In this document: positions 2,687 through 28,263 of the stretch, one piece after another | How positions within the stretch are numbered: the stretch's first letter is position 1 | Layout of the letters: every line of letters begins with the position of its first letter | Assembly (NCBI RefSeq): GCF_038811545.1 | Contig: NZ_CP133319.1 | Coordinates: forward strand, 992,001 to 1,056,000 | Length of the DNA: 64,000 bases | DNA from: Rhodoligotrophos sp. CJ14 | Lineage (GTDB): Bacteria > Pseudomonadota > Alphaproteobacteria > Rhizobiales > Im1 | Reading direction: 5' to 3' | Translations under genes and position numbers: made by a program | Notes under the pieces: generated by a model | Told to the model about the DNA's origin: nothing | Seen by the model: the letters and a program-made list of their open reading frames with translations, nothing else | Databases searched by the model: none

Positions 2687-2956
2687 ATCACTCCCATCGG
2701 CCATTCGCGGCCCATCTGCAATCGGACAGATTATCCCGATGGCAGGAATGCTGAATCCGGCGGATCTGAGAGGCGCCGGGCATCTCATTCCTGGCTCTGG
2801 CCCGCGCTACCAATCCGCCTTATGGTGTCGCAGTTTACGTGCTCCAGGTCGCAAAGCTGCATGTCTAGGTGGCAGCGGGTGCTAAGGTCGCCGCAACCCA
2901 CCGGCGGTTCTGCAGCACCGACCGGAGCTTTGCGTCCTGGCCGGTCCTGGAGAACG

Positions 2957-4207
2957 ATGAAGCTCTACTCGATCTTTTCGCTCGCGCGCAATGCGCTCAA
3001 CTACCACAAGGACTGGCCACGTGCCTGGCGCAGCCCGGAGCCTCGGCCAGAATACGACGTGGTGATCATTGGTGCCGGCGGCCACGGGCTTGCGACTGCT
3101 TATTATCTCGCCAAGGAGCACAAGGTCACCAATGTGGCAGTGCTTGAGAAAGGCTGGCTCGGTGGTGGCAATACCGGCCGCAATACCACGATCATCCGCT
3201 CGAACTATCTGCAAGATGAATCGATGGCGATCTACGAGCTCTCGCGCAAGCTCTATGAGGATTTGTCGCAGGAGCTGAATTTCAACACGATGTTTTCCCC
3301 CCGCGGCCTCTTGATGCTCTGCCAAACCGAGCATGAGCTTCGGGCAATGAAGCGTACGAACCATGCCAATCGGCTGGCGGGGATCGAGGCGCGAATGATC
3401 GACACCGCCGAGGTGAAGCGCCTGGTGCCTATCATCAATGATAGCCCGAATGCGCGCTATCCCATTCTAGGCGCCTATTATCAACCGCGCGGCGGTACCG
3501 GGCGCCATGATGCCGTCGCCTGGGGCTACGCGCGCGGCGCCGATTCTCGCGGCGTCGACATCATCCAGAATTGCGAGGTCTTCAAGATCATCCGCGACGA
3601 CGACCGGGTAACCGGTGTCGAGACGAGCCGCGGCACGATCCGCGCCAAGAAGGTGGCTGTGGTGACCGCCGGCAATACCTCGCCGCTGATGCAGTCGGCC
3701 GGGGTCAATATGCCGCTTGAGAGCGTGTGCCTGCAGGCTCTGGTCTCAGAGCCGATCAAGCCGGTCATCGATGTGGTGGTGATGGCCAACACGGTCCATG
3801 GCTATATCAGCCAATCGGATAAAGGCGAGCTCGTTATCGGCGGTGGCGCCGATGCCTATAATAATTATTCCCAGAAAGGCACCCTGCCCGCCCTCGAGCA
3901 CACCATCACCGCGCTCGTGGAAACATTCCCGATCATCTCCCGGCTGCGCACGATGCGCATGTGGGGTGGCATTGTCGACATGACCGGCGACCGTTCGCCG
4001 ATCATCGGCAAGACCGACGTGAAGGGGCTTTATGTGAATTGCGGCTGGGGCACCGGCGGTTTCAAGGCCATTCCAGGCTCGGGCTTCGTTTTCGCCGACA
4101 CCATCGCCAATGATCGCCCTCATCCGATTGCGGCCCCCTTCGGGCTCGACCGGTTCCTCGAAGGCCGCCTCATTGACGAGAGCGTGGCTGCGGCCGTCGC
4201 TCACTGA
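2957..4207 (+). CDS. soxB: Sarcosine oxidase subunit beta
   Basis: This is the FAD/FMN-carrying oxidising subunit of heterotetrameric sarcosine oxidase, which demethylates sarcosine to glycine with O2, giving H2O2 and, with THF, methylene-THF. It has 416 residues from the ATG at 2957, a normal size. An N-terminal dinucleotide-binding motif (VVIIGAGGHGLATAYYLA) lies near residue 32. GRHDAVAWGYARGA contains His184, which fits the position of the covalent-FMN histidine of the family. C-terminal GDRSPIIGKT and GWGTGGFKAIPGSG match DAO-family closing motifs. An upstream reading-frame extension (from 2558) overlaps ccmI antisense and is rejected. It is the first gene of soxBDAG. Confidence 0.94.
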   Translation: MKLYSIFSLARNALNYHKDWPRAWRSPEPRPEYDVVIIGAGGHGLATAYYLAKEHKVTNVAVLEKGWLGGGNTGRNTTIIRSNYLQDESMAIYELSRKLYEDLSQELNFNTMFSPRGLLMLCQTEHELRAMKRTNHANRLAGIEARMIDTAEVKRLVPIINDSPNARYPILGAYYQPRGGTGRHDAVAWGYARGADSRGVDIIQNCEVFKIIRDDDRVTGVETSRGTIRAKKVAVVTAGNTSPLMQSAGVNMPLESVCLQALVSEPIKPVIDVVVMANTVHGYISQSDKGELVIGGGADAYNNYSQKGTLPALEHTITALVETFPIISRLRTMRMWGGIVDMTGDRSPIIGKTDVKGLYVNCGWGTGGFKAIPGSGFVFADTIANDRPHPIAAPFGLDRFLEGRLIDESVAAAVAH

Positions 4208-14072: not shown

Positions 14073-17000
14073 TCAGAGATGAATAACCGCGCGCCGTCCA
14101 GTGCCTCGGCCGAACAGCGCGGAAACCTGATGGACGGTCGCGATGAAACTTGTCGGAAGACTGCCAAAATCGGCGATCTGGGCCTCGCTGCTATAGATCA
14201 CCTGCGGCTCTTGGGCAACGAGGCTTCGTTTAAACGAGCCCTGATCATTGAATAACTCGATCTCATAGGCTTCGACCTGTTCACCCAGCGGCACATCGCT
14301 CAATTGCCAGCTGTCGCCGCCGTTGCGGGTCCGCCTGATCCAACGCAACTCGACATCCCCGGTGGCAAGCCGCCGTCCACGCACATGCACTGGGCTAAAC
14401 GGCCGCAGACCAAGGCCCGAGAAGCGGTATTGCATCTCGACAAACGTATCCCCGCCGAGAGCATCTCCAGCTGGTCCCGCCCGATAACGATGGTTCACCC
14501 CTAGATCCGCCGCCTGCATTGCGACGGGTATCACCGCGGAATCAATCAACAGAACCCGCGCTCCTGCCAGCACTGTGTCTGACATTTCGCCCTCGCTCCC
14601 ATACTGGCCGCGCAGCAGGCGGCTTAATCGCCAGACTTGCGGCGCGATGAGCTCGGCTTCAGCAAATTGCAGAAGCTCCCAATGATCATCGCTGTTTTCA
14701 ATCGCGATGAGATTGCCGCCGGCAAGCACCGCGGCCTCTTCAAGTGAACGCATTTCACCCTGATAGAGCCGGATATCGATCGCGGTTCCGCGGTCCCATC
14801 GCCCCGTCGGCCCTCGCGAGAACTCTGATATTGTTTCACCCGCTGCAGCCGGTAATCCCAGAATGCCAACGAGGCCGTAATCCTGGCTGCCTGCCGTTCT
14901 GTACAGATTGACGGGTCCAGGCCAGGGACGGGCGAAAGCGGCCGCATAGCTCCCCCAGTCCGGATCACTGTCTCTAAGGCGCGGCAAATTGAGCAGCGCG
15001 AGCGCCGGCGCACCTTTTACGCCCGTAGTAGGCTTCGCCGAAATCGCCCGTCCATATCGCGTTGCTGCATAGGCCGGCCTGAAGATGTCTTCGTCAAAAG
15101 CCCGCGCCTCACACACCCGCTCGGTCAGCTCATTGATCCGGCTAAGGCGAAAAACCTGCGGTGGTGCGTCCCCCTTCATCACACTGACGACATCGCCCGG
15201 CTCGAGCGCCAGCCGCGACGGTGAGACCGTAAATTGGCCGATCTCCCGGGCAACCCAGAGATCCTGCAACCAAGTCTCAACAGCGTTCTGCGCGCGCGCC
15301 TGGTCCGTCACCACGGCCACGTCCGCTTCCGCAACCCGCTGGCTATGGCCAGGAACGCGCCGGGCCTCGGCGGCCGCCGTGCGGTAATCCGCCTGTGCCT
15401 CGATGAACCGAAGCTTGGCGGCCTGCGGCAATTCCGTCTCCTGGCGCCGCGTGAGCGTCAGGATCATCCCCTCGCCCAAATGATCTTCACCGAGCGTTGC
15501 AACGGGGCTCGCGCCCTGCTTCGGACAGATCCGGATGCGGTCGCCGGTTTCGACACTATCGAACCCGAACACCACCTCCAGCGGCTGCAAAGCCTCTCTC
15601 AGCGACATGGTCCGGTCGAGCACATAGCCATCGACTGTGCCATGCAACTCCGCGCTTGCCACCTCAGTAAGGCCGAAACTTCGGGAAAGCTCCCGGACGA
15701 GATCAGCCAGGGATACGGCGGTTGCCCGGCTGGAGATCCAGTGTCCTTGCGGCCAGTTCTCTGCATCGCCCCACGAGCCGCGATCGGTGGGAAACGACGG
15801 GAACGGCCGTGCATCCCAGGCCCAGACGCAGATCTTATCTGCATCCACCATGCTCGCCCCATAGGATCCGATCGGGTTATGCCCCGCAGCCGGCTCCCAA
15901 TAGCCTGTCACCGCCTCGATATAGGCCCGCTGCATGGCATCGTCGCGACCACCCGTCGAGAATGGCGGAATTCCGGACTCCGATGATTTCGCATCGAAGA
16001 ACAGGTTCGGCCGGTTGGTGCCCTTGTCGATCGCCGGACAGCCGCATTCCGTGAACCGGATGGGCTTCGACCTGGGCTGCCACCCGGTTGGCGCTGTAGC
16101 CTCTATGCCACCCGGGCGGTTATAATGGGTATTCTCCCACCAGCCCCGAATATCCTTGTTGCGGAACACCCATGGCTTGCCCCGCCCGTCGGTGATCGGC
16201 GACCGGGCTTGTGCGCGCCGGTCAAGATCATCCGCATAGAACCAGTCGTAATATTCGCCCCCTTCTATCCCCGCCCGCAGATACTTCTGGTCATAGATCG
16301 AGGTGACGCCTGCATCAGGATCATAGTCGAGGTGGTCCCTGCCCTCGCGCCAGTCGGAGAGCGGTAAATAGTTGTCTATACCTATGAAATCGATATTGGC
16401 GTCCGCCCATAGCGGATCCAGATGAAAGACCACATCACCGGAGCCGTCATCGGGCCGATGGCTGTGATATTCTGACCAGTCAGCCGCATAGCCGATCTCG
16501 ACGCCCGGCCCGACGATTGCCCTCACATCTGCGGCAAGCTGCTTCAGTCCCTCCACAAAGGGATACCCGCCGTCGCCATCGCGCACCTGCGACAGCCCCA
16601 CCATCTCCGACCCGATCAAGATCCCGTCGGCGCCCGCGCCCTTGGCGATCGTGGCATAGTGCAGAATGAAGCGGCGATAGGACCATTCGCTCGGACCGGT
16701 ATAGTCGACGCCCGCTCCTGACGCCGCAATCCCGAAGTCCCCCGGCTCGGCCTCCCCCAGGAACGCGCCGATCTGTGTGGTAGCGGCGGCATATCTGTCG
16801 GCAAGCAAGGGCTCTGCTGAGTCGTTGAGTCGATAGGCTTTGAGCCCTCGCCCGGGCGTTGCCTGTGGCGCTGCAAAGATCGCCGACCCCGTTGCCGCTG
16901 GATCCGCTGCGGGAAACGATGCCTTGAAGCCGATTGCCGGAAACAAATCGGCACGCAGCAACGGCCCCTCTGGGTCCTCTAGATCAACCCACAGGCGCCG

Positions 17001-18575
17001 GAACTCGCCCATGCGCTCCATGCCATAGCCATGGGCGATGAGACCATTTCCGGCCACGAGCCCATCGATCACATCTGAATCAGGGTTGTAGCGAAGGGTA
17101 ACCGCATGCGTCCCTTGCCGCGTCATGACCCGCAGTGCCGGAAAGCTCGCTGCCGACTGATCCCTCAGCACATAGACCGAAACCGTGCTGCGCTTGCCCA
17201 CCAATAGATCGGCAAGGCAGGAGGCATAGCCCCCGGCAGCAGCCGCACCATCGGTGAGCATCACCCGTGATCCCGCATGCCCCTCGGGCATCTCCCCATT
17301 GACCACCTCGAGGCCGATATTGGAGAGCGCCCAGCTCCCCAGATCACCGGTGGTCACAAACCCATTGCCCTGCCCTGGTGCGGGATCGCACGTGATCCGG
17401 CCCCGCCAGGGATAGGCCGGCTGGTCTCTGGCCCCATCCCAGGGATCGGTTAGCCCATTACCCTGGGGCACATCCATCATCAGGAAGGGCAGCACGGTCA
17501 CGTGATAGCCGCGCTGCTTGAGGTCCTTGATGGCCGAAACGACAGATGCGTCATTGGGCGTTCCGCCATAAGCGGGCCGGTTGGCGACCAGCGAGACGGC
17601 CTCAGCATCCGCACGCTCCAGCCCTGCGACCCGCCAGCGGATCGGCATCGTATCCTTCTGCTTGTTGTCGACCTTCGGCCGGATGGTGCATTGACCGCAG
17701 CGCAGATCATCTCCGAACCAGGCCACCACCAGATTGACTGTCTTGAGATTGGGCAGGAGCACGCGCAAATGGTCGAGCGTGAGCGCCCAATCGCTCTCAC
17801 CGCTTGTCACATGCCGATTTTCCGTGGCGACGAAGATCGCGCCCCAGCTACCTGAGCTGACCTGCTTGACCGCTTGGCGCTCATAGCCGAACTCCGTCGC
17901 GCCCGGGATGAGGTTGACCCCCCGGATCCGCTCCTCCACCCGGCCCGGCAGCGGCTTGAACACTTCGAAATTGAGCTGCGGGATCCTGTTGCCGAATTGC
18001 TCGAGCGCCAGCCGCTCGAACACCACATAGGCAATGCCTCGATAGGCCGGAGCATTGGCCGCCCCTTCCTTCGCTTCGATGAACGCATCTGGCAGCTGAT
18101 CCTCGCTGCCCCTATAGACGCGATAGGTGATATTGTTGAGATCGAGCTCCTTGCCGTCTGCCCAGATGCGGTTCACATAGGCGATCTCACCCTCACAGAG
18201 CGCAACAGCGAAATTGGCGAAATACCGATAGGAAATCGAGGTGATCGTCTGGCCACCAATGCCGAAGACACCGCCGACCGTGTCCTTGTCCTTATCGATC
18301 ACCTCCTCGAGCCGTGTCGCCCAGATCATCTGCCCCCCAATCCGCACCCGTCCATAGACGCGCGGGATCGGGCTGCCCTCGGTCGCCGACAAGACATCCA
18401 GTTCGGTGAGCCTTGGGCCGACCTGCGTGCCGCCGCCCGATGCGCCAAACAGCGCATTGTCAATGACACTGCCGGCGATTGCGGCACCCGCATTGAGCAG
18501 GGACTGCCCGATGGCGTTGAATCCCATGGATGAGCCGATGGCCGAGGCAGCCGTCGTCAGCAGGATCGAAGCCAT
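14073..18575 (-). CDS. GTA gp15-like giant host-contact / baseplate protein with inserted domain
   Basis: This is the largest tail protein of an RcGTA-type particle, forming the baseplate hub and central fibre that touch the recipient cell. It has 1500 residues, longer than the roughly 1300 of RcGTA gp15. The N-terminus is glycine/alanine rich. A GTA TIM-barrel-like domain begins about residue 275 (NLVVAWFGDDLRCGQC) and continues after an insertion (ATTQIGAFLGEAEPGDFG, GADGILIGSEM, RFTECGCPAID). Phage-tail modules follow to the C-terminus (GQYGSEG, HVRGRRL, WIRRTRNGGDSW). Residues about 398-588 interrupt the barrel with a beta-rich module (STVSVYVLRD, GEFRRLWVDL, GSAIFAAPQ) resembling phage carbohydrate-binding modules. 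It is the last gene of the GTA operon, 7 bases after gp14. Confidence 0.92.
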   Translation of the reverse strand: MASILLTTAASAIGSSMGFNAIGQSLLNAGAAIAGSVIDNALFGASGGGTQVGPRLTELDVLSATEGSPIPRVYGRVRIGGQMIWATRLEEVIDKDKDTVGGVFGIGGQTITSISYRYFANFAVALCEGEIAYVNRIWADGKELDLNNITYRVYRGSEDQLPDAFIEAKEGAANAPAYRGIAYVVFERLALEQFGNRIPQLNFEVFKPLPGRVEERIRGVNLIPGATEFGYERQAVKQVSSGSWGAIFVATENRHVTSGESDWALTLDHLRVLLPNLKTVNLVVAWFGDDLRCGQCTIRPKVDNKQKDTMPIRWRVAGLERADAEAVSLVANRPAYGGTPNDASVVSAIKDLKQRGYHVTVLPFLMMDVPQGNGLTDPWDGARDQPAYPWRGRITCDPAPGQGNGFVTTGDLGSWALSNIGLEVVNGEMPEGHAGSRVMLTDGAAAAGGYASCLADLLVGKRSTVSVYVLRDQSAASFPALRVMTRQGTHAVTLRYNPDSDVIDGLVAGNGLIAHGYGMERMGEFRRLWVDLEDPEGPLLRADLFPAIGFKASFPAADPAATGSAIFAAPQATPGRGLKAYRLNDSAEPLLADRYAAATTQIGAFLGEAEPGDFGIAASGAGVDYTGPSEWSYRRFILHYATIAKGAGADGILIGSEMVGLSQVRDGDGGYPFVEGLKQLAADVRAIVGPGVEIGYAADWSEYHSHRPDDGSGDVVFHLDPLWADANIDFIGIDNYLPLSDWREGRDHLDYDPDAGVTSIYDQKYLRAGIEGGEYYDWFYADDLDRRAQARSPITDGRGKPWVFRNKDIRGWWENTHYNRPGGIEATAPTGWQPRSKPIRFTECGCPAIDKGTNRPNLFFDAKSSESGIPPFSTGGRDDAMQRAYIEAVTGYWEPAAGHNPIGSYGASMVDADKICVWAWDARPFPSFPTDRGSWGDAENWPQGHWISSRATAVSLADLVRELSRSFGLTEVASAELHGTVDGYVLDRTMSLREALQPLEVVFGFDSVETGDRIRICPKQGASPVATLGEDHLGEGMILTLTRRQETELPQAAKLRFIEAQADYRTAAAEARRVPGHSQRVAEADVAVVTDQARAQNAVETWLQDLWVAREIGQFTVSPSRLALEPGDVVSVMKGDAPPQVFRLSRINELTERVCEARAFDEDIFRPAYAATRYGRAISAKPTTGVKGAPALALLNLPRLRDSDPDWGSYAAAFARPWPGPVNLYRTAGSQDYGLVGILGLPAAAGETISEFSRGPTGRWDRGTAIDIRLYQGEMRSLEEAAVLAGGNLIAIENSDDHWELLQFAEAELIAPQVWRLSRLLRGQYGSEGEMSDTVLAGARVLLIDSAVIPVAMQAADLGVNHRYRAGPAGDALGGDTFVEMQYRFSGLGLRPFSPVHVRGRRLATGDVELRWIRRTRNGGDSWQLSDVPLGEQVEAYEIELFNDQGSFKRSLVAQEPQVIYSSEAQIADFGSLPTSFIATVHQVSALFGRGTGRRAVIHL

Positions 18576-18582
18576 ATGCCTC

Positions 18583-19023
18583 TCATATGTTGAATAGGAA
18601 TGCCGCTGCCAGGCGCCTCAGCCACCACGGGTTGAGGCTGACCTCGCTCACGGCGATGCCCTGATGAACATGGATCATCCGATCGGGCCCGGCGAGAATT
18701 GCCGCGTGCTTTGCGACACATCCTTCACGCCAGCGAAAGGCCACGATCATGCCCGGCGTGAGACAATCGAGTGAAGCGGAACAGAAATGCGCGGCAAGGC
18801 CGCGGAGCAGCAGCTCATCTCCGGTGGCTTCCGCCCAGTCTGGTGCGTAGAGGGGCAGCCGTTGCGGAACGTCACCACCGAGATCCCGCCACACACCGCG
18901 CACGAGCCCTATGCAATCGCATCCCACGCCGCGCAGGCTCGCCCGATGCCGATAAGGTGTGCCAAGCCAATGACGGGCGGCCGCAACGACCGCCTCACTC
19001 GCCGGCGAAATTGCCGCCCCCAT
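18583..19023 (-). CDS. GTA gp14-like NlpC/P60 cell-wall peptidase
   Basis: This is a tail-associated peptidoglycan hydrolase of the NlpC/P60 type, thought to open the recipient wall for DNA entry. The ATG at 19023 (GAGG upstream) gives 146 residues; a GTG at 19038 is the alternative. The catalytic Cys is in GVGCDCIGLVRGVW and the His in CVAKHAAILAG, with HWLGTPYRHRAS at the N-terminus as in other GTA peptidases. It overlaps the end of gp13 and is followed 7 bases later by gp15. Length is typical. Confidence 0.92.
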   Translation of the reverse strand: MGAAISPASEAVVAAARHWLGTPYRHRASLRGVGCDCIGLVRGVWRDLGGDVPQRLPLYAPDWAEATGDELLLRGLAAHFCSASLDCLTPGMIVAFRWREGCVAKHAAILAGPDRMIHVHQGIAVSEVSLNPWWLRRLAAAFLFNI

Positions 19024-19894
19024 CGAGATTGGCCTCACCGGGATTGGGGTAAGCCATCACGAAGTCCTTGGTCGGCATATGCGGGAAGCCGCGAAAATTG
19101 GCGCCATTGGCGAACTTGGCCCGGCAAGTGGCGAACCGCTTGTCGCACCCCGCCTCCACCATGAATTGGTCATTGACCGCGATGATCCCGGCCGGCGCCT
19201 GCCAGAGCTCGATAAAAACGATGCCAGCCTCTTGCCGGTGCGTCTTCACCTCCGAGGCAACACCCGCATTGGCACCCGTGGTCCAGACGAGCCGTCCCCG
19301 CTCGAACCATCTTACTGGGAAGTTGCTGAGGCCGCCCGCATCCAGCCTGCGATTAGCCTTCACCGCCTCGACGCTGCCGAACCCGCGATAGCTCTCGCTC
19401 GAAAGCGAGACGCCGCATCGCTGATCCCCCAGCATCGCATCACAGGTGAATTGGTAAAGGCGGCCCTGCGGTTGATTAAGCCGATGCGCCAGCCCGCGGA
19501 TCTCGGCGGAGAAGGCCTTGCCGCTCCGTGTGACCTCCCCCAGATTGCCCTTCCGCATCAGCACCCATTGGCTGGGTTTCTGCCAATTGACCCGCAGGAT
19601 CTCCACATCCGCATCGTCGTAGCGGCCTGCCGCGATATCCTCCTCCGTGATCTCGGCAGCGCTGAGTGCTGCCTCGGCTTGCATCGTATCGACTGCAAGC
19701 CCGAGCGCCGACGTGATCTCGCCTGCGGTAAACCCCGTACCGGCTTTATAGGTCACGCCCTCGACGATCAGGTCTATGTCGTGGTCCGTAAATCCCATCA
19801 CCTGTCCGTCATGCCGTGTAATCTTCCAGCACCAGGCGAGTGTCGTTGCCCCATCTTCAAGATGCGCCTGAAGTTCGGGATCGAGCGTCTTCAT
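18995..19894 (-). CDS. GTA gp13-like tail hub protein (DUF2163)
   Basis: This is the hub protein of the GTA baseplate, of the DUF2163 / phage BR0599 type. It has 299 residues, starting MKTLDPELQAHLEDGATTLAWCWK, the usual start in this family. It contains TRHDGQVMGFTDHDIDLIVEGVTY-type sequence near residue 30, and a Cys-rich C-terminal part (MVEAGCDKRFATCRAKFANGANFRGFPHMP) typical of hub proteins that may bind a metal or iron-sulfur cluster. It starts with an ATGA overlap with gp12 and runs into gp14. Nothing is missing. Confidence 0.92.
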   Translation of the reverse strand: MKTLDPELQAHLEDGATTLAWCWKITRHDGQVMGFTDHDIDLIVEGVTYKAGTGFTAGEITSALGLAVDTMQAEAALSAAEITEEDIAAGRYDDADVEILRVNWQKPSQWVLMRKGNLGEVTRSGKAFSAEIRGLAHRLNQPQGRLYQFTCDAMLGDQRCGVSLSSESYRGFGSVEAVKANRRLDAGGLSNFPVRWFERGRLVWTTGANAGVASEVKTHRQEAGIVFIELWQAPAGIIAVNDQFMVEAGCDKRFATCRAKFANGANFRGFPHMPTKDFVMAYPNPGEANLDGGGNFAGE

Positions 19895-20523
19895 CGCCGC
19901 ACCTCGATGAGGGGAATGTGAGGAATGTCGCCGACGCCGAACGCTGTAAGATTGATGTCGAGTGCGTCGGTGTCAAAGCGCACCGGCACGTCGAACTCAT
20001 AGCCGGCGGTGATCACCGCGCCATCGGCCGGCGGCACCGCGAAACTGACCAGGCCTGTCGCGTGATCGACCGTGAAATCCGCGCCCGCGGCAAGCTCTCG
20101 CCCTTCGATCGCCACCCGCACCGTGGCCGCGACCGGCTTGGTGATCGGCCGGACATAGAGCCTCTCGCCGGATTTGTAGCGCTTTACCAGTTGGAACAGG
20201 GCCCTGGTGCCGTCACCCGTCCCGATCTGCTGATCCACCGGCGAGATTGGCGCACTGGGCGCACTGGATTTGAAATCCGTATGGTCCTTAAAGCGAAATC
20301 CGTACAGCCGGCCCGCCCGCGCCTCGAAAAACGCGAGCACCTCGTGAAGGTCGTCGAGCGACTTGACCCCATACCCCGCATTATACCGCCGCCGCGAATG
20401 GACCCAGCGCCCGTTGCGCTCCTCTCCGCCCGAGGCGAGCGTCACCACATCCGTCCGCCGCTCGGGACCTCCCGATGAGCCAAGGGAGATGCTCGTCGGA
20501 AACCGCACCTCATGAAAAACCAT
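19891..20523 (-). CDS. GTA gp12-like distal tail protein (DUF2460)
   Basis: This is the distal tail protein that joins the tail tube to the hub. The ATG at 20523, with GAGG five bases upstream, gives 210 residues starting MVFHEVRFPTSISLGSSGG, matching the known start of the family. A TTG 15 bases earlier is possible but less likely. Typical segments are RRRYNAGYGVKSLDDLHEVLAFFEAR (in two pieces), GRLYGFRFKD and PVRFDTDALDINLTAF. It lies between gp11 and gp13 with short or overlapping junctions. Confidence 0.92.
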   Translation of the reverse strand: MVFHEVRFPTSISLGSSGGPERRTDVVTLASGGEERNGRWVHSRRRYNAGYGVKSLDDLHEVLAFFEARAGRLYGFRFKDHTDFKSSAPSAPISPVDQQIGTGDGTRALFQLVKRYKSGERLYVRPITKPVAATVRVAIEGRELAAGADFTVDHATGLVSFAVPPADGAVITAGYEFDVPVRFDTDALDINLTAFGVGDIPHIPLIEVRR

Positions 20524-20534
20524 GTTGTCCTCGC

Positions 20535-21116
20535 TCAAAGGTTTCGCTGTCCCCTCGCGATCGCCCGGGCCAGCATGGCGCCGATCTCCGATTGCGACCG
20601 CTGGAAGCCGGAGACGTCGGGGGTTGTCACATTGAAGGTCACCTGCACGGGCCGGCCATCACCATCGCTGCGCACGCCGAGCCGCCCGTCAGACCCTCGA
20701 GCCAGAGGCAATATCGCCTCAGGTCCTGCCTCACCCATGAGCCCCGTGCCGCCGCGCATGGGAAACAGCGTTGGCCCGGCAACGACGCCACCGTCGGCGA
20801 ACGGCTTGAGCACACCACCGGTGAAGACATTCCCGCGCGCATTCGCCGTAAGCCCCGTGACCGCACTGCTCAACGCAGCTCCCAGCCCTTCGGAAAAGGG
20901 CCGCAAGGCAGCCGCAAGCGTCTTGTTCGAAAGCGACAGGATCAGCGAGCGCATGACATCGCTGAGCTTGCGTCCGCCAACCGCCGCATTGGCAAAGGCG
21001 CGCGTGATCGAGCGCTCGAACCCGTCGGCCAGCCGGCCCAAATCGTCGAGCTCCTTCTTGAACTGGCTCGCATCAAGCCCGATGGCCATATCGAGTTCTG
21101 GGCGATCATCCGCCAT
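20535..21116 (-). CDS. GTA gp11-like tail tape measure protein
   Basis: This is the tape measure protein that sets tail length. It is only 193 residues, as expected for the short GTA tail and far shorter than phage tape measures. The ATG at 21116 has an excellent AAGGAG six bases upstream. Helical N-terminal half (FKKELDDLGRLADGFERSI) is followed by a glycine-rich segment with FADGGVVAGP and GLMGEAGPEAILPL, the standard signature of this family. It overlaps gp10.1 by 11 bases. Confidence 0.92.
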   Translation of the reverse strand: MADDRPELDMAIGLDASQFKKELDDLGRLADGFERSITRAFANAAVGGRKLSDVMRSLILSLSNKTLAAALRPFSEGLGAALSSAVTGLTANARGNVFTGGVLKPFADGGVVAGPTLFPMRGGTGLMGEAGPEAILPLARGSDGRLGVRSDGDGRPVQVTFNVTTPDVSGFQRSQSEIGAMLARAIARGQRNL

Positions 21117-21342
21117 GGTTTGCTCCTTCCCCATCGGGATAGCGCATCATCAATGCGACCAAGGTGCCGCGATCAGGCCTATCCGGCGCGGGCTTGATGC
21201 AACCGGCCCCTTCCAGCGCCGCCCTAAGCTCTCGCGGCGTCATCTGCCAGAATTGGGCGGGCGGCAGCCGCAGCACGCCAAGCCCCACGCCCATGAGCTG
21301 TCTCCAGGGGAAACCTGGGTGCTCGCCATCACGAACCGCCAT
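21106..21342 (-). CDS. GTA gp10.1-like tail assembly chaperone
   Basis: This small protein of 78 residues corresponds to the RcGTA orfg10.1 type (rcc01693-like) tail assembly chaperone. FPWRQLMGVGLGVLRLPPAQFWQMTPREL is the family signature (shown here by its FPW and PPAQFWQMTPREL elements). It begins inside the end of gp10 (ATG at 21342, gp10 stop at 21329) and ends inside gp11. It is easy to miss by automatic calling because of its size and its overlaps on both sides. Confidence 0.9.
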   Translation of the reverse strand: MAVRDGEHPGFPWRQLMGVGLGVLRLPPAQFWQMTPRELRAALEGAGCIKPAPDRPDRGTLVALMMRYPDGEGANHGG

Positions 21343-21663: not shown

Positions 21664-22077
21664 TCAAGCTGCCGAGAAGCTCAGCACGCCCGCAGATTCG
21701 AGCGCGATCTCGAAGGTGAGCTCCCCGTCATGCTGGCCCGCATAATCGAGCGCGGTGATTTGGAACGGGCCTTGGAGGATGCCGAAATCCGGTATGATCA
21801 CCTGCCAGTCGCGAATGAGATCGCCGAAAAAACAGGCGCGCACCCTTTCATCCGAGCTTTCATCGCGGAAGATCCCCGCACCCCGGATGCTGGCGGAACG
21901 AACCCCGGCTCCGCCCAGCAATTCACGCCATCGTTGGGCTGAATCCGCGTTGGTGACATCGACCATCGCTGCATTCAGCCCGATCGAGTGGCTCCGTAAG
22001 CCAGCGATGGTTGTAAACTGCCCACTGCTTTCGACATCGACCTTCAATAGAAGGTCGCGGCCTCGTTGAGCCGTCAT
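21664..22077 (-). CDS. GTA gp9-like major tail (tube) protein
   Basis: This is the tail tube protein of TP901-1 type that stacks into the tail. The ATG at 22077, with GAGGAG seven bases upstream, gives 137 residues starting MTAQRGRDLLLKVD, the expected family start. Landmarks are TIAGLRSHSIGLNAAMVDVTN and GPFQITALDYAGQHDGELTF (in pieces). It is separated from gp8 by 79 bases without a gene; that gap holds its ribosome-binding site. Confidence 0.92.
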   Translation of the reverse strand: MTAQRGRDLLLKVDVESSGQFTTIAGLRSHSIGLNAAMVDVTNADSAQRWRELLGGAGVRSASIRGAGIFRDESSDERVRACFFGDLIRDWQVIIPDFGILQGPFQITALDYAGQHDGELTFEIALESAGVLSFSAA

Positions 22078-22156
22078 GATTGATCTCCTCAATGGAAAGG
22101 CAAGCTTGGCCGGCCGCCGCCAGTTCAGTAGGGGGAAGAGGCTCGGCGCCACCAGA

Positions 22157-22579
22157 CTATTGGTCCTGAGCCAGCGGCTCGGTCACCGCTCTCAGCCGCA
22201 TTACGCCGTGATAGGTCACCCCGTCGGGATCCCTCAATGCGTGCCAGAATACGGGTCGCAGATTGATGAGCTTATGCCCATCGAGGCTGGGCAGGTCCTG
22301 ATCCAGCGCCGCGTCCACGGCCTCCATGACATCCTGCACTTCCCGGCGTCCCGCCGCCCGCGACCACACATGGATCGTCAGCTGATGCTCATGTCCGCAC
22401 CGGGTCTGAGTGCTCCAGTCATTGGTCCTGATGTCCCCGATGGTGATGTATGGAAAGCGTCTATGCTCATCCACATCATCGGCGATGCCATCGGCACCGA
22501 CCATTTCGATAATCTCAGCATTCAGGCTGAGTTGATCGAACAGCGCCCTTTGCAGGGCGAAAGCAGCACCCTTGCTCAT
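22157..22579 (-). CDS. GTA gp8-like tail terminator (DUF3168)
   Basis: This is the tail terminator that caps the tail tube at the head side. It has 140 residues of DUF3168 type: GAAFALQRALFDQL, YITIGDIRTNDWSTQT, CGHEHQLTIHVWSRAAG and REVQDVMEAVDAAL are classical. The start ATG at 22579 overlaps the stop of the 62-residue gene upstream in an ATGA junction. No irregularity was found. Confidence 0.92.
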   Translation of the reverse strand: MSKGAAFALQRALFDQLSLNAEIIEMVGADGIADDVDEHRRFPYITIGDIRTNDWSTQTRCGHEHQLTIHVWSRAAGRREVQDVMEAVDAALDQDLPSLDGHKLINLRPVFWHALRDPDGVTYHGVMRLRAVTEPLAQDQ

Positions 22580-22764: not shown

Positions 22765-23087
22765 GGGACCAGCCTCTCGCGAACGACGTAGGTGAGAAAT
22801 CGCCCGCGTCCGTCATCATCCTGCAGGCCATCGATCTCGAAGATCCTCTCGCCCTGCCGGAACCGCATGCTCGTCGTCACGTCACAGCCGCTTCGCACCG
22901 TGATCCGGTGCGTGACCGACGCGGCGATCTTCTCCGCCTTGACCCCAGAGGCCTGCCGTATTGGCCTGATATCTGCCCACATGCAGGCCACAGGCGTCCA
23001 CTGCACCACAGCCCCGCCCGCCCCATCCGACGTCCTCGCCGGTGCCTCCAGCACGAGCCGATGCCGGAGCCGTCCGATCGCGATCAC
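22761..23087 (-). CDS. GTA gp7-like head-tail stopper (head closure) protein
   Basis: This is the head closure protein at the head-tail junction. The GTG at 23087 overlaps the gp6 stop (GTGA junction) and gives 108 residues starting VIAIGRLRHRLVLEAPARTSD. It shows GAGGAVVQWTPVACMWADIRPI and RHRL/HRITVR elements, typical of SPP1 gp16 / HK97-type stoppers. The reading frame is open further upstream, but that part is antisense-like and overlaps gp6 fully, so it is rejected. Confidence 0.9.
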   Translation of the reverse strand: MIAIGRLRHRLVLEAPARTSDGAGGAVVQWTPVACMWADIRPIRQASGVKAEKIAASVTHRITVRSGCDVTTSMRFRQGERIFEIDGLQDDDGRGRFLTYVVRERLVP

Positions 23088-23659
23088 AGCGCCATGATCC
23101 GGTACGGGGCAACGAGCGCATTGATCATGGCCGGGATTTCGAACGCGTGATCGCCGAGGGCGACTGGCTCCCGGTTCTCGTACCAGTGAGCGACGAGTTG
23201 CAGAATGGCTTGGCGCAACGGTTGGGGCACGTCTTCGGGCGCATCGCCATAGCCGGCCGTGATCTCGATTTCGATCCCGCGGAATGGCTTGTCCGGGCGC
23301 GGCCATTGTCGGCCGGATCGCGGTCTGAGCCTCGGGAGACTGCCCGTATCTGCGGTATAGTCGGCCGGCTCGATCTCCCTGGCTGCTCCGCTCTCCGCAT
23401 GAAGGATCACGCTGTCCACCGACTGAACCGGCCGGATCGCCAGCGTGATGACGCCACCCTCCGGCCACTCGTCCAGGAAAACCGACCATCCCTGGGTGAT
23501 GAACATCCGACGGGTCGCGATCTCGAGATGAATCCTGGCCGACGTGATGAGAGCGGCAATCAGCTCATCTTCCAGGCATCCGGCCACCCGCAGATGGGCC
23601 CTTGCCTGCTCGAGGCTCACCGGCTCGACTGCCGGCGGTGAATTGGGTACCGACATCAT
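23084..23659 (-). CDS. GTA gp6-like head-tail adaptor
   Basis: This is the connector protein that binds under the portal. It has 191 residues with the family pattern: PVSLEQARAHLRVAGCLEDELIAALI-like N-terminus, TRRMFITQGW, a middle with ITLAIRPVQSVDSV, then IEIEITAGYGD, QPLRQAILQLVAHWYENREPV and the C-terminal INALVAPYRIMAL. It follows gp5 after 104 bases that contain a strong hairpin, and overlaps gp7. Confidence 0.92.
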   Translation of the reverse strand: MMSVPNSPPAVEPVSLEQARAHLRVAGCLEDELIAALITSARIHLEIATRRMFITQGWSVFLDEWPEGGVITLAIRPVQSVDSVILHAESGAAREIEPADYTADTGSLPRLRPRSGRQWPRPDKPFRGIEIEITAGYGDAPEDVPQPLRQAILQLVAHWYENREPVALGDHAFEIPAMINALVAPYRIMAL

Positions 23660-23763: not shown

Positions 23764-25038
23764 TCAGGCCGTGCCGAATTTGAGAAGCTTGATCGCGTCG
23801 AAGTCCTGCACCCCGCCGCCGACCCGCTTGGTCGTGTAGAACAGAACATAGGGCTTCGCCGAATAGGGATCGCGCAGCACGCGCATCCCGAGGCGATCAA
23901 CGATCAGATAGCCGCGACGGAAATCGCCGAAGGCGATTGCGGTTGCATCAGCGGCTATGTCGGGCATGGCCTCCGCCTCGACCACCGGGAAGCCCATGAG
24001 GCTTGCGGGCGATCCGGCCTGCAGCGCAGGTTGCCACAGGTAATTCCCATCCCCGTCCTTGATTTTGCGGACTGCCGCCTGGGTTTTGCGGTTCATGACC
24101 CAGCGGCCGTTCTGCCGATATCCCGCTTTGAGTGAATAGACCAGGTCGATCAGGATATCGGCAGCGTCGGTTGCAGCGAAGCCTCCCGAAACGCCGGTCG
24201 CCAGATGTCCCAGATTGCCCCAGCTCCAGGAGGAATTGGCGACCGTGTTATAGTCGAGAAAGCCGCGTGGCTTGTTTGAGCCGTCACCTGCAACGAATGC
24301 CGCACTCTCCTGCTCGGCAAACACCGTGCGGACCTCGTCCACAATCCACTGGTCGATATTCACCGCCGCATCATCGAGCAGGCTCTGGGTTGCCGCCGGC
24401 ATGGCATAGAGCTCCATCGTCGGGAACTCGATCGAGGCAAGGCTTGGCGAGGTGGTTTGCGTGCGTGCATCAGTTTCTGCAACCCAGCCCGTTGCAGCCC
24501 CGGTGGTCACGAAGGGTTTCTTGTAGGTGGCACCTGAAACCTGCCGCACGCTCGCGATCGCACGGATCGGCGAGACATCTCCCAGCAGGCGCCCGATCTC
24601 GGTTTCCGTCTCCTGGGGAACGAGATAGCCGCCATCCGGCCCCGATCCAACCGACAGCGCTTTCGCTTCCAGGGCTGCGAGCCCCTGCGCCTCCCCTTTG
24701 CGCATATAGGCATGGAAGGCGGATTTATGCTGCAAGGCGTTCAGATCCAACCCGACCTGCTCTTGCCCTCCCGAAGTCCCCATCCGCGGGCGGGCGGCCT
24801 TCAAGACCAGCGCATCGAGCTGCTGCTTCTGCTCGTCGAGCGCCATGTTGATCCGCCCGACCTTCTCCTCCGTGAGGACGTCCGTCGCCATGCGCCGCTC
24901 GAGCTGCGCCAGGCGTTCGTCATTGGCCTGCTTGAAGCTTTCGAAGGCCTGCATGAAGCCCTCGAACGCCATGCCGATATCGCCCGTCTGCGGACGGGCA
25001 ACCTTCATCTCCAGAGCTCGATCTTCCATATCTCTCAT
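23764..25038 (-). CDS. GTA gp5-like HK97-fold major capsid protein
   Basis: This is the major capsid protein. It has 424 residues, with an N-terminal delta/scaffold region (about 20-100) of coiled-coil character (AFEGFMQAFESFKQANDERLAQLE). The region is removed in relatives by the gp4 protease. The HK97 fold follows: LSVGSGPDGGYLVPQE, IASVRQVSGATYKKPF, TMELYAMPAATQSLLDDA, FVAGDGSNKPRGFL, WVMNRKTQAAVRKIKDGDG and DFRRGYLIVDRLGMRV. All are hallmarks of HK97-type capsids. It starts with an overlap of the gp4 stop. Confidence 0.95.
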   Translation of the reverse strand: MRDMEDRALEMKVARPQTGDIGMAFEGFMQAFESFKQANDERLAQLERRMATDVLTEEKVGRINMALDEQKQQLDALVLKAARPRMGTSGGQEQVGLDLNALQHKSAFHAYMRKGEAQGLAALEAKALSVGSGPDGGYLVPQETETEIGRLLGDVSPIRAIASVRQVSGATYKKPFVTTGAATGWVAETDARTQTTSPSLASIEFPTMELYAMPAATQSLLDDAAVNIDQWIVDEVRTVFAEQESAAFVAGDGSNKPRGFLDYNTVANSSWSWGNLGHLATGVSGGFAATDAADILIDLVYSLKAGYRQNGRWVMNRKTQAAVRKIKDGDGNYLWQPALQAGSPASLMGFPVVEAEAMPDIAADATAIAFGDFRRGYLIVDRLGMRVLRDPYSAKPYVLFYTTKRVGGGVQDFDAIKLLKFGTA

Positions 25039-25565
25039 CGTGACGTCCTCTCATTGGCAGCAGGTGATGTCAGGAAGGATTGGGCAGCAGCCCGTATGGC
25101 CGAGGCAGACAGGCCCTCGCGCTGTACAGGCCGGGATGCAATGGGGCCTGTCACGAGCCTCGCTTCGGCGAGAAGCGGAAACGTGACGATCGAGATTTCC
25201 CAGAGGTCGATGGCCGTCAGCAGCCTCATTCCCGTCACGCGATCCCGTTGAGCATGCAGCGTGCGAAAGCCGATCGATAGGCCATCCAGGGCGCCGAGCC
25301 TGACAAGACGCGCGATCTCCTCTGCGCGCTCCACACCTTCCGCAAGCAGGCCCTGCACCTTGAGCCCGTAGCCATCCTCGCGGATATCGGTCCAGAGTCC
25401 GATGGGCTGCCCCGGATCATGCTGGAAGAGCATTTTGATGCCAGCGGGCCTGCGGCGGGCGAGCGAAGCGCTGAAGGCGCCCCTGGCGACCACATCACCG
25501 GCGCTATCGGCGCGGCCGAACACGCTCGCATAGCCCTCGATCATCATTGATGGATCCACGATCAT
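25035..25565 (-). CDS. GTA gp4-like HK97 prohead protease
   Basis: This is the maturation protease that trims the capsid delta domain. The ATG at 25565, with GGAG upstream, gives 176 residues (an earlier in-frame start overlaps gp3 and is rejected). The S78-type catalytic elements are present: LFQHDPGQPIGLW with its His, and GALDGLSIGFRT with its Ser, plus LWEISIVTFPLL. The N-terminus MIEGYASVFGRADSAGD is canonical. It lies 71 bases after gp3, too little space for the g3.5 gene known in RcGTA. Confidence 0.94.
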   Translation of the reverse strand: MIVDPSMMIEGYASVFGRADSAGDVVARGAFSASLARRRPAGIKMLFQHDPGQPIGLWTDIREDGYGLKVQGLLAEGVERAEEIARLVRLGALDGLSIGFRTLHAQRDRVTGMRLLTAIDLWEISIVTFPLLAEARLVTGPIASRPVQREGLSASAIRAAAQSFLTSPAANERTSR

Positions 25566-25636
25566 TCTCTCTCCTGCAGACTGAAGCAGGTTGCTCGGGG
25601 AAGAAGTGCTGAAAGGGATGTGACGTGCCCGCAGGA

Positions 25637-26836
25637 TCAGTCGCCGCGGCTTGGCCCATAACCGACAGCGGCACGCTTCTCGTTGGTCGTCAGAAAGTCG
25701 GCGGCGGCGATCCGCGACCACAGCGCCTCTCGTTCTGAAGAAAGCGCCTCGATCTGGTCGGCGTCATACCAGAGCCGGAGATCGTGCCCGAAGCTCGGCG
25801 CGAGCCACTGGCTCAATGCGCGCGCGGTTTTCCCAACCAGCGGCAGAACCGTCTGGCGCCAGAATGTCCGATTGGCCTCCGCGTAATTGGCGAAGGTGTT
25901 GTCGCCGGGAATACCAAGCAGCATGGGTGGCACACCGAAAGCCAGGGCGATTTCTCTGGCTGCTGCATGTTTGGCTTCGATGAAGTCCATATCCCGCGGG
26001 CTCAGGCTCATGGATTTCCAGTCGAGCCCGCCCTCGAGCACCAGGGGCCGTCCTGCATTTGCCGCCCCCTGGAAGGAGGCTTCGAGCTCCTGCTTGAGCC
26101 GCGAAAACTGCTCTTCCGATAAGTTGCCCGAGCCGTCCTGGCCGCCATAGACCAGCGCACCCGAGGGGCGTGCCGCATTATCGAGCAGGCTCTTGTTCCA
26201 TGCCCCCGCCGCGCTCTGAATGTCCACGCTATGGGCGGCAGCCTCGAACGGGCTCAACCCGTAATGCTCATTGATGGGATTGAACAGCTTGAGATGAAGG
26301 ATCGGCCACTGCCCGCGACCGGACTGGTCGAAACGCACCGTCTGCCCGTCCACCGTGTATTCATAGGCGTCCGGCCAGCCATCCCCTCCAGGCACCGCCC
26401 GCATCCGGTCGGGTCTCAGCACATAGAGTTCGCGCGCCGCACCATCGATGCTGACCACCTCCATATAGCTGTTTCCGGCAGTCTGCAGATAGCCGTAGAA
26501 GTCTTCGAAGAGATCGATGCCGTTGGTGACCGGATTTGGCCTCGCGAGCAGCTCGAGCAGCGGATGCTGCATGATCTCCTCGTCACCACGGTAGAGCAGC
26601 CAAGGAACGGACGCCGCCGCCTCTGCAATCATCCTCACGCAGCGATAGCCAACCGCGTTCCGCGTAAAGCCCTCCCGGGCGAGATCCGCATAATTCCGCG
26701 GCGTCCATACCGGACGCCCCTGCATATGCAGCGCGACCAATGCACCGCTCGCGCTTCGTTTGATTTCGCCGGCAGCTACGGACGGCCGCCTCGCCTCTTT
26801 GCCGGCGAGCTGCCGCAATCGCTCAAAAATTGCCAT
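25637..26836 (-). CDS. GTA gp3-like portal protein
   Basis: This is the HK97-family portal ring protein through which DNA is packaged and released. The ATG at 26836 gives 399 residues starting MAIFERLRQLAGKEARRP. Typical segments are YADLAREGFTRNAVGYRCVRMIAEAAASVPWLLY (in pieces), HPLLELLARPNP, ILHLKLFNPINEHYGLSPFEAA and LSPRDMDFIEAKHAAAREIALAFGVPPMLLG. Full length, no gaps. It is preceded by 101 bases holding a direct repeat and hairpin, then gp2. Confidence 0.95.
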   Translation of the reverse strand: MAIFERLRQLAGKEARRPSVAAGEIKRSASGALVALHMQGRPVWTPRNYADLAREGFTRNAVGYRCVRMIAEAAASVPWLLYRGDEEIMQHPLLELLARPNPVTNGIDLFEDFYGYLQTAGNSYMEVVSIDGAARELYVLRPDRMRAVPGGDGWPDAYEYTVDGQTVRFDQSGRGQWPILHLKLFNPINEHYGLSPFEAAAHSVDIQSAAGAWNKSLLDNAARPSGALVYGGQDGSGNLSEEQFSRLKQELEASFQGAANAGRPLVLEGGLDWKSMSLSPRDMDFIEAKHAAAREIALAFGVPPMLLGIPGDNTFANYAEANRTFWRQTVLPLVGKTARALSQWLAPSFGHDLRLWYDADQIEALSSEREALWSRIAAADFLTTNEKRAAVGYGPSRGD

Positions 26837-26861
26837 GAGGATTTCCCGTTTATGGGTGACT

Positions 26862-26908
26862 TGCGGCACCGCTTACGCGCGCATGATCATCCGCGCGCAT
26901 GCGGTGCT
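26862..26908. repeat. Intergenic hairpin with internal direct repeat between terminase and portal
   Basis: In the 101-base gap between gp2 and gp3, outer arms GCACCGC and GCGGTGC enclose two copies of CGCGCGCATG (26876-26885 and 26892-26901). The copies also allow CGCGCG self-pairing. The element could be a small RNA structure in the polycistronic message, or simply sequence drift in a GC-rich gap. It has no T run. Confidence 0.4.
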
Positions 26909-26937: not shown

Positions 26938-28263
26938 CTAAAGGCTGCGCACCCGGGGCGCCTTGGGCCTGCCGAGCATCAATTCGGTCATCGCCCAGAC
27001 CAGTGCATCCGCCCGGTCGGGGCTGCGGCCGGCGCTGGCAATGACGGCCTCGAGGCTACAGAGCTCATCTTCGAGTTCAGCGAACACCCCCACATGCGAG
27101 ATGCGTCCCTGCTCGTAAAGCGCTGCAATAGGTTCGGCCCGGGTCTGTTTGCCGCGACTTGCGCGTACCGCGCGGAACGGTATGCGCGGGTCAATCTCGC
27201 GGATAACGGCCTCCACCATGTCGCCCCCCTGGTTCACTTCGGCGATGAGCCGGTCAGCCTCATAGGCATGGAACAGCTCCACCGCCCGCTTCGCCCAGCG
27301 AGCGGGCGCGGCCCCTTCGAGCGTGCCGTCTCGCAGCACATAGCCGCGGCCGTCACCACCCAGCCCCGCGCAGATGATCCCGCACGCATTGGCACCCGTG
27401 CCAGCCGTGGCCGGCGGATCGACCGCGACGACGATCCGAGCCAGCTCGGGCGCGGCCGCCACCCGGTATTTCTCGATATCGGCGCGCTTGAACAGTGCGC
27501 GGGGATCATCATCGATCAGCTCCCCATCGAGCTCCTGGCGGCCAAGCGCCGTGCCGCCATACTTGCCTTCGACGACCGCCAGGAACGACGCGGCGAGATT
27601 GGCCGCATTGTCCCGTGTTTTCGCCCGTGAGACCCGCGTGCCCGTTTCCGCCAGGAGCTTATGGAGGATCGGCACCGGCTTTGGCGTCGTCGTGGCCACG
27701 ATCCGCGGCTTGGGGCCGAGCCGTAGAGCAAATTGCAGCATGTCCCACGTTTCGTCCGGATTGCGCCATTTGGCGATCTCATCGCACCACGCGGTTTCGA
27801 ACTGTGGCCCGCGCAATTGATCCGGCTCCTCTGCTGAAAACAACTGTGCGACGGCTCCATTGGCCCACGTCACCGTCCTTTTGGACGGCTCATAGACAGG
27901 GCGGCTCCGCCGGTCATGAACCGCAAGCAGGCCGGACTCCCCCTCCACCATCACCGAGCGGACATCATTCAGCGTCTGCCCCACAAGGGCGATGCGCCGC
28001 GCCGGAGCGGGGCTGAAGCACAGATCACCCTTGACCTGCGCTTTGATCCACTCCGCCCCGGCCCGGGTCTTGCCGGCGCCGCGTCCACCCATCAGCAGCC
28101 ACACGGTCCAGTCTTCATCATAATGGGTGAGATCGGGCGGGAGCTGGTCCATGCGGCCACGCAAGACCCAGTCCCGTTGCATCGCCAGCAAATCCGGCAG
28201 GCCGAGCCGGCCTAGCCGTGTTGCCCGCTCAGATGGGGCCAATGAGCCCCAGCCGTTCCGCAA
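26938..28263 (-). CDS. GTA gp2-like terminase large subunit
   Basis: This is the packaging motor ATPase and nuclease. It has 441 residues. Walker A GGRGAGKT spans residues 59-66, and Walker B ends in Asp161-Glu162 (ETAWCDEIAKW). The coupling motif IVATTTPKP follows, and the nuclease domain begins IVVAVDPPATAGTGA with its metal-binding Asp. Later motifs include LIAEVNQGGDMVEAVI and DALVWAMTELML. In GTAs this enzyme packages host DNA by a headful mechanism with little sequence preference. It overlaps the end of gp1 by 35 bases. Confidence 0.95.
   Translation of the reverse strand: MRNGWGSLAPSERATRLGRLGLPDLLAMQRDWVLRGRMDQLPPDLTHYDEDWTVWLLMGGRGAGKTRAGAEWIKAQVKGDLCFSPAPARRIALVGQTLNDVRSVMVEGESGLLAVHDRRSRPVYEPSKRTVTWANGAVAQLFSAEEPDQLRGPQFETAWCDEIAKWRNPDETWDMLQFALRLGPKPRIVATTTPKPVPILHKLLAETGTRVSRAKTRDNAANLAASFLAVVEGKYGGTALGRQELDGELIDDDPRALFKRADIEKYRVAAAPELARIVVAVDPPATAGTGANACGIICAGLGGDGRGYVLRDGTLEGAAPARWAKRAVELFHAYEADRLIAEVNQGGDMVEAVIREIDPRIPFRAVRASRGKQTRAEPIAALYEQGRISHVGVFAELEDELCSLEAVIASAGRSPDRADALVWAMTELMLGRPKAPRVRSL

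Follow-up and report, generated by a model that had tools for sequence, protein, structure and literature searches.

The systems closest to the one described here are found in the gene transfer agent (GTA) RcGTA and in tailed phages. Passages of the RcGTA structure paper call gp15 the “megatron” and gp13 the hub (PMC7296036), and three megatrons are placed in the baseplate of this tail type in parts of PMC7296036, PMC10218006 and PMC10276861. The head spikes of RcGTA enable attachment to the capsule, as stated in passages of PMC7296036 and PMC10218006. An extra domain in the megatron barrel is already known from phage vB_DshS-R4C (R4C). According to excerpts of PMC10276861, the R4C megatron (8gtc) contains a carbohydrate-binding domain at residues 482-629 within the peripheral barrel, which was proposed as a sugar binder and likened by the authors to CBM11. 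In the contractile-tailed phages E217 and Pa193, a module of the same sequence family as ours is a domain of a structural subunit (E217 gp45, 8env_K; Pa193 gp46, 9b45), and the available passages of PMC10329688 and PMC11042391 report no sugar binding by these subunits.

The window, that is, the whole stretch of 64,000 nucleotides that was analysed, encodes a GTA megatron homologous to that of R4C (E=2.9e-263). R4C is a phage and the window holds a GTA, and the extra domains of the two proteins do not share a loop, as the R4C domain corresponds to an unaligned segment at window residue ~664-665 and not at 403. The RcGTA megatron Rcc01698 (6tba) is homologous on both sides of our insert but lacks its 189 residues. 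RcGTA does contain a homologous module, likewise in a GTA, at residues ~87-261 of Rcc01080 (6tb9); there it belongs to a separate flexible head fibre, whereas the window module lies inside the tail-tip megatron. A literature search over titles, abstract openings and passages, with few subscription journals among its sources, turned up no report of a GTA megatron carrying an insert of this kind. Within the literature found, the GTA case, the kinship with the head spike, the repeated use of the site and the presence, at two other loops, of a module family with no apparent relation to this one are new.

The megatron and its gene cluster

The structural genes of the GTA, from the terminase to gp15, all lie on the minus strand of the window. 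The features considered are as follows.

14073..18575, minus strand: gp15-type megatron of the GTA, 1500 aa (6tba_8A, E=0; 8gtc_M, E=2.9e-263; Pfam GTA_TIM, Phage-tail_3 and Rcc01698_C)
16800..17366, minus strand: inserted beta-sandwich module (modelled fold), megatron residues 404-592 (alignment gap, junction survey, models and profiles)
17367..17963, minus strand: first part of the modelled peripheral domain/TIM barrel, residues 205-403 (phmmer alignment, AlphaFold model)
15789..16685, minus strand: second part of the TIM barrel, Pfam GTA_TIM, residues 631-929 (Pfam; Foldseek matches to GH113 mannanases)
16605..16607, minus strand: Glu657 of the megatron (E in 185/185 aligned rows)
16047..16049, minus strand: Glu843 of the megatron (E in 184/185 aligned rows, gap in 1)
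18583..19038, minus strand: gp14 cell-wall peptidase, NlpC/P60 (Pfam scan)
18995..19894, minus strand: gp13 baseplate hub (Pfam scan)
19891..20538, minus strand: gp12 distal tail protein, DUF2460 (Pfam scan)
20535..21134, minus strand: gp11 short tape measure protein, 199 aa (assigned from gene order and GTA homologues; without Pfam match)
21664..22152, minus strand: tail tube protein (Pfam scan)
22157..22579, minus strand: tail completion protein (Pfam scan)
23084..23659, minus strand: head-tail connector (adaptor) (Pfam scan)
23764..25038, minus strand: major capsid protein (Pfam scan)
25035..25721, minus strand: prohead protease (Pfam scan)
25637..26869, minus strand: portal protein (Pfam scan)
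26938..28263, minus strand: large terminase (Pfam scan)

Homology to Rcc01698 along the protein, together with the GTA_TIM, Phage-tail_3 and Rcc01698_C domains, placed the 1500-residue protein in the GTA megatron (gp15) family. We take an RcGTA-type GTA to be marked by a capsid-to-megatron cluster, a short tape measure, the lack of an integrase or lysis gene, and flanking host genes. The window contained the capsid-to-megatron cluster, a short tape measure gene and host genes on both sides, with nitroreductase and two-component genes on one flank and a penicillin-binding protein on the other. A scan of 18 window proteins and gp15, small ORFs excluded, named neither an integrase nor a lysis gene in the cluster; three of the 18 proteins had no Pfam match. 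By gene content, the cluster can be classed as an RcGTA-type gene transfer agent. An earlier reading, made from the sequence alone, had called the insert-bearing protein the hub, a name that belongs to gp13 and not to gp15 in the passages of PMC7296036.

The insertion and its boundaries

That sequence-only reading had proposed an extra domain of about 190 residues in the barrel, at positions 16810-17380. Alignment by phmmer with RcGTA gp15 (6tba) paired megatron residues 1-403 with 1-405 and residues 593-1496 with 409-1300, leaving 189 residues (404-592) without a counterpart, so the proposed length agreed closely and the proposed position was right to within ~15 bases (16800-17366). The junction was sharp. 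In relatives it has the sequence RITCDPAPGQxGTxDKTAAA and 19 residues separate two anchors, against 205 in the window protein and also in the protein on contig 2 of G002, another genome of the genus. Residues 404-592 are confirmed as a clean domain insertion in the GTA megatron. An intein was considered and rejected; intein hallmarks are a Cys, Ser or Thr nucleophile as the first residue and a His-Asn end, and the insert starts with Asn, ends with LLA and contained no splice residues when read by eye.

The junction was then compared among megatrons. In a survey set of 30 loci, 27 were bare, two had the insert (G002 and G383) and one was read in the wrong frame. Two further sets, each being the best 80 of more than 590 matches and hence a sample, gave similar counts: among the named genome loci, 74 were bare at 19 residues, two were bare and shorter, one had the insert (the G383 element again) and three were fragments or misread ORFs, and among the viral loci 78 were bare at 19 residues and two were bare at 11 and 18. 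Pooling gave 185 sampled megatrons, of which 179 had a bare junction (176 at 19 residues, three at 11 or 18), five had the insert (205, 205, 205, 206 and 192 residues between the anchors) and one was uncovered (L149). Outside this pool were L068, L090, L121 and L127 (fragments or misread ORFs), L021 (odd start, junction bare), L022 (wrong frame) and L142 (duplicate of L063). Grouping the 185 rows at 98% identity into 177 clusters left 171 bare, five with the insert and one uncovered. These counts showed that the insert is rare among sampled megatrons, and the bare junction in 179/185 of them bears out the earlier expectation that the segment is not common to all GTA gp15 proteins.

Predicted fold of the insert

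Megatron residues 205-965 were modelled with AlphaFold from an alignment of 42 megatrons that held no phage module. In this context model the insert was all-beta with 11 strands, preceded by a barrel strand at about residues 358-367 and followed by a helix; the 10-residue mean pLDDT over the insert was 34-81, which is low to moderate confidence. Foldseek searches with the context model found the R4C megatron, GH113 mannanases, Pa193 9b45_1 (1.7e-5) and E217 8env_K (5.7e-5). The search gave no aligned ranges, and the assignment of 9b45_1 and 8env_K to the insert and of GH113 to the barrel is our own. The insert modelled by itself had a pLDDT of 84.9 and a pTM of 0.84, and its best PDB matches were 9b45_1 (TM 0.75) and 8env_K (TM 0.71), followed by CBM-type and other beta-sandwich folds. 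The CBM folds matched by the models included CBM22, CBM4, CBM35 and CBM6. At E<=0.001, 79 viral models matched the stand-alone model, several of them named tail protein or “concanavalin A-like lectin”. The alignment for the stand-alone model held 40 phage modules, and its fold is thus not independent of the homology described below.

Across the AlphaFold models the insert was an all-beta domain of 11-12 strands, and the predicted model shared its fold with phage tail and head-spike beta-sandwich modules among both solved and predicted structures. The models therefore support a separate all-beta domain of the phage tail/CBM-like beta-sandwich fold. The best explanation of the models is that the module replaces a turn of a few residues in the loop following a strand of a GH113-like TIM barrel. 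Both structural claims of the sequence-only reading, a domain set apart from the barrel and a phage tail or carbohydrate-binding type of beta-sandwich, agree with this all-beta domain in a barrel loop and with the Foldseek matches of the predicted models to 9b45_1, 8env_K and CBM-type folds.

The same matches raise the question of a structural role. E217 gp45 and Pa193 gp46 are the best solved fold matches (TM 0.71-0.75), and both are baseplate triplex subunits; a passage of PMC10329688 describes gp45 as a fibre anchor, and their domain may provide comparable bracing in those baseplates. The insert could accordingly be a phage beta-sandwich that serves assembly as a spacer, for example by bracing the barrel against the fibre, the distal tail protein or the tailspike. 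We consider this unlikely, since the bare junction of 179/185 sampled megatrons implies that assembly generally does without the module, and we prefer a receptor-binding role, for which the evidence is given below.

Kinship with the head-spike and phage tail module

Pfam and PHROGs assigned the window insert to no family, and its relatives were informative. The best PDB match of a profile built from five megatron inserts was Rcc01080, the RcGTA head-spike fibre (E=0.0028), and it strengthened to E=8.8e-9 once a module from genome G532 joined the profile. By hhalign, the five inserts matched the head-spike stretch plus two modules at E=1.5e-10, and none of 100 shuffles scored as high. The cleanest test compared the three inserts of the window's own genus with a phage-only profile of 40 modules: the score was 38.8 (E=1.3e-5), whereas 60 column shuffles reached at most 18.2 and the reversed control 11, and the alignment covered insert residues 1-135. 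Taken singly, the inserts of G002, G001, G383 and G453 scored 25.6, 37.4, 31.5 and 24.4 against this profile, and the window insert alone scored 13.1, which is noise level. Among 14 megatron segments, only 301-489 and 401-589 matched, which hold the first part of the insert or nearly all of it; segment 501-689, with the second half, gave no match. The phage-only profile itself found Rcc01080 at 2.6e-51 and also 8env_K, 9b45_v and 9occ_C. Profile similarity thus places the insert family, above shuffled controls, with the PHROG 5939-type module (Rcc01080 87-261).

Searches in the opposite direction were weaker. When four genomes of the family were searched with head-spike-type modules as queries, the insert was the best match, weakly, in G001 (0.0049) and G002 (0.028), and a chance place was chosen instead in the window's own genome, G000 (0.23). 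The phage-only profile found the insert in G001 only (5.8e-5), missing two of the three genus genomes, and its best place in G000 was a chance one. A mixed profile, which contained rows from two of the three genus genomes searched, had the insert as its sole match at E<=1. At the thresholds used, the genus gave no second copy of the module, although a divergent head spike could escape detection, given that the insert itself was missed by the phage-only profile in 2/3 genomes. Through its relatives, the insert is homologous to the phage tail/baseplate beta-sandwich module that includes Rcc01080.

Two other matches were set aside. DnaT at E=0.31 was taken as chance. ApbE, at E=0.0025 with a four-sequence profile and ahead of Rcc01080 at 0.04, covered 59 residues only, and its match weakened to 0.05 and 0.39 as the profile gained members.

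Carriers and separate gains

All three genomes examined in the genus (G000, the genome of the window, G001 and G002) had the insert, and it was absent from a genome of the same family (G003). The insert-bearing megatron of G002 was 72% identical to the window protein over its full length, and the same genome also encodes a second megatron without the insert. Profile searches covered 397 genomes of the order and 385 of the class, these totals counting genomes and not megatrons. The order gave seven matches: the three of the genus, the megatron of G383, a phage-type module in another, 887-aa protein of G099, and matches in G231 and G250 that were taken as chance from the translations around them. 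The class gave four: the window, the megatron of G453, a module outside the megatron in G532, and a match in G622 (E=0.0086) that was provisionally taken as chance. The G383 carrier, from a Hyphomicrobiales MAG, is a prophage-like element that appears to encode a lysozyme and to have a long tape measure gene; these two names and a DUF2793-like one in G383, like those in G029 and G532 below, were read from translations. G453 belongs to another family of the class, its only megatron holds the insert, and its cluster gave matches to gp3-gp15 within 19 kb.

In a tree of 70 megatron cores, built without the insert columns, the insert trait needed three changes. A single clade of the five carriers was rejected with p-AU 5.2e-7, in a test in which the carrier group was defined by the trait and an earlier tree was known beforehand, and a common origin of the five carriers is rejected on that value. 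Our computation showed that the insert arrived at the same megatron site on at least three separate occasions.

In G001 (L032:3538-18760, contig 3), the megatron gene was split after residue ~783 by a prophage-like element of ~15 kb with a tyrosine integrase at one end, and a repeat search found no clear attachment repeat for it. The IMG/VR contig L038 represents the same junction, and this contig, the sole viral match to the insert, carries the G001 megatron. Searches of phage and plasmid records with the window insert gave two records at E=7 and none, respectively, and no match came from viral scans that used the inserts of G383 and G453 or the G532 module. The window's own genome also contains a degraded second megatron remnant (C1:4484398-4485868, L036), with a DUF2793 match adjoining.

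Between the window and G002, the identity of the insert was 65%, compared with 83% for residues 1-403, 77% for 593-960 and 62% for 961-1500. Since the insert was not less conserved than residues 961-1500, fast change alone is no sign of receptor contact. The dN/dS of the insert was 0.12 for window-G002, 0.34 for window-G001 and 0.43 for G002-G001, with dS near saturation, and purifying selection acts on it. GTA loci do decay in this genus, as the broken megatron of G001 and the degraded second megatron of G000 illustrate, and the insert might be a neutral or decaying passenger without function; we regard this as highly improbable in view of the purifying selection, the use of the same site in at least three lineages, and the absence of any stop within the insert in the five carriers.

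Proposed function of the module

The insert most likely represents an added receptor-binding module, with a glycan as its probable ligand by analogy with its relatives. Some of these relatives are structural baseplate parts, so glycan binding by the insert is a property that we infer. In the context model, Glu657 and Glu843 were located at or after barrel strands, in what are presumably the places of the acid/base and the nucleophile, respectively, of a GH113-like barrel (clan GH-A). Because of the usual TIM-barrel layout, the insert loop and the two glutamates would share one face of the barrel, and the module is read as an added glycan-recognition part for its place beside this glycosidase-like cleft. 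Conservation of Glu657 and Glu843, together with the match of the barrel model to GH113 mannanases, makes a kept enzymatic activity of the megatron barrel plausible as a prediction.

Such an activity could shift the emphasis from recognition to cleavage. The module may be the substrate-targeting CBM of an active glycanase, in which the barrel cleaves surface polysaccharide and the main effect is capsule digestion. The Foldseek matches to GH113 beta-mannanases, a Pfam GH113 match (1.6e-6 over 31 residues), the conservation of Glu657 and Glu843 among 185 megatrons and the predicted resemblance of the module to enzyme CBMs are in keeping with this idea; however, the passages of the literature found report no megatron catalysis, and the function of the peripheral barrel is called unknown in a passage of PMC13420450. 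We judge digestion as the main effect to be distinctly improbable, and it is compatible with a receptor role.

We think it fairly probable that the insert is a self-contained phage-type beta-sandwich, plugged into the megatron barrel as a receptor module that narrows or shifts the range of recipients. With three megatrons per particle, three receptor-binding modules would be added to the tail tip, each on the barrel face that also bears the conserved glutamate pair. A surface glycan could be bound at the edge of what may be a glycan-processing cleft, and the baseplate would recognise capsule or O-polysaccharide directly, in addition to the separate tail fibre. Such recognition would narrow or shift which cells receive DNA. 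DUF2793 is, as we take it, a domain of the RcGTA tail fibre, and a fuller DUF2793 gene is present elsewhere in the window genome (C1:3671933), so the module probably supplements the fibre rather than replacing it. The sequence-only reading is thus partly supported: its structural claim and the rarity of the insert are borne out, while sugar binding and an effect on recipient range are suggested by analogy.

To our knowledge, what sets the recipients of GTA DNA is known mainly for one species. A separately gained module at one loop, kin to the RcGTA head spike, is a candidate for recipient range that can be read from sequence, and both GTAs and a prophage-like element gained a receptor-type module at that loop. 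The G002 megatrons with and without the insert form a natural pair for testing.

Modules at other loops and in other genes

Inserts were also observed in other loops of the megatron. The megatron of Oceanicella actignis (L063) had one at about residue 383 in window numbering, and those of a Rhodobacteraceae MAG and three viral contigs (L072, L129, L130 and L148) had inserts at about 688-693. The inserts at the two places were kin to each other (hhalign probability 97); no kinship with the window module was detected for either, and neither had a sequence match in the PDB. At least two module families seem mobile, both between barrel loops and between particle genes. A broader idea, put forward tentatively and on balance doubtful, is that loops on the catalytic face of the GTA/phage megatron barrel serve as a general plug-in rack for modules that recognise recipients, and that in this genus a module type known from the RcGTA head spike is placed on the tail tip instead. 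At least two families without detectable kinship, three loops (~383, 403 and 665-693) and repeated gains would fit such a rack. If it were true, recognition of the capsule would be tied straight to the baseplate with its conserved, glycosidase-like cleft, and exchanging modules would retune the set of cells that receive DNA.

Several modules were seen outside the megatron. In G029, from another genus of the order, the phage module type (E=2.3e-5) was present in a separate 447-aa gene (L305:2385-3725) that lies downstream of both the megatron gene and a DUF2793-like gene. In G164, a congener of G029, the module was located ~2 kb past the megatron end (L306, about 2924-3340). In G532 (contig 140, 1-3000; L213), an ORF of 225 aa that encodes a relative of the module was on the same strand as apparent ABC-type polysaccharide exporter genes.
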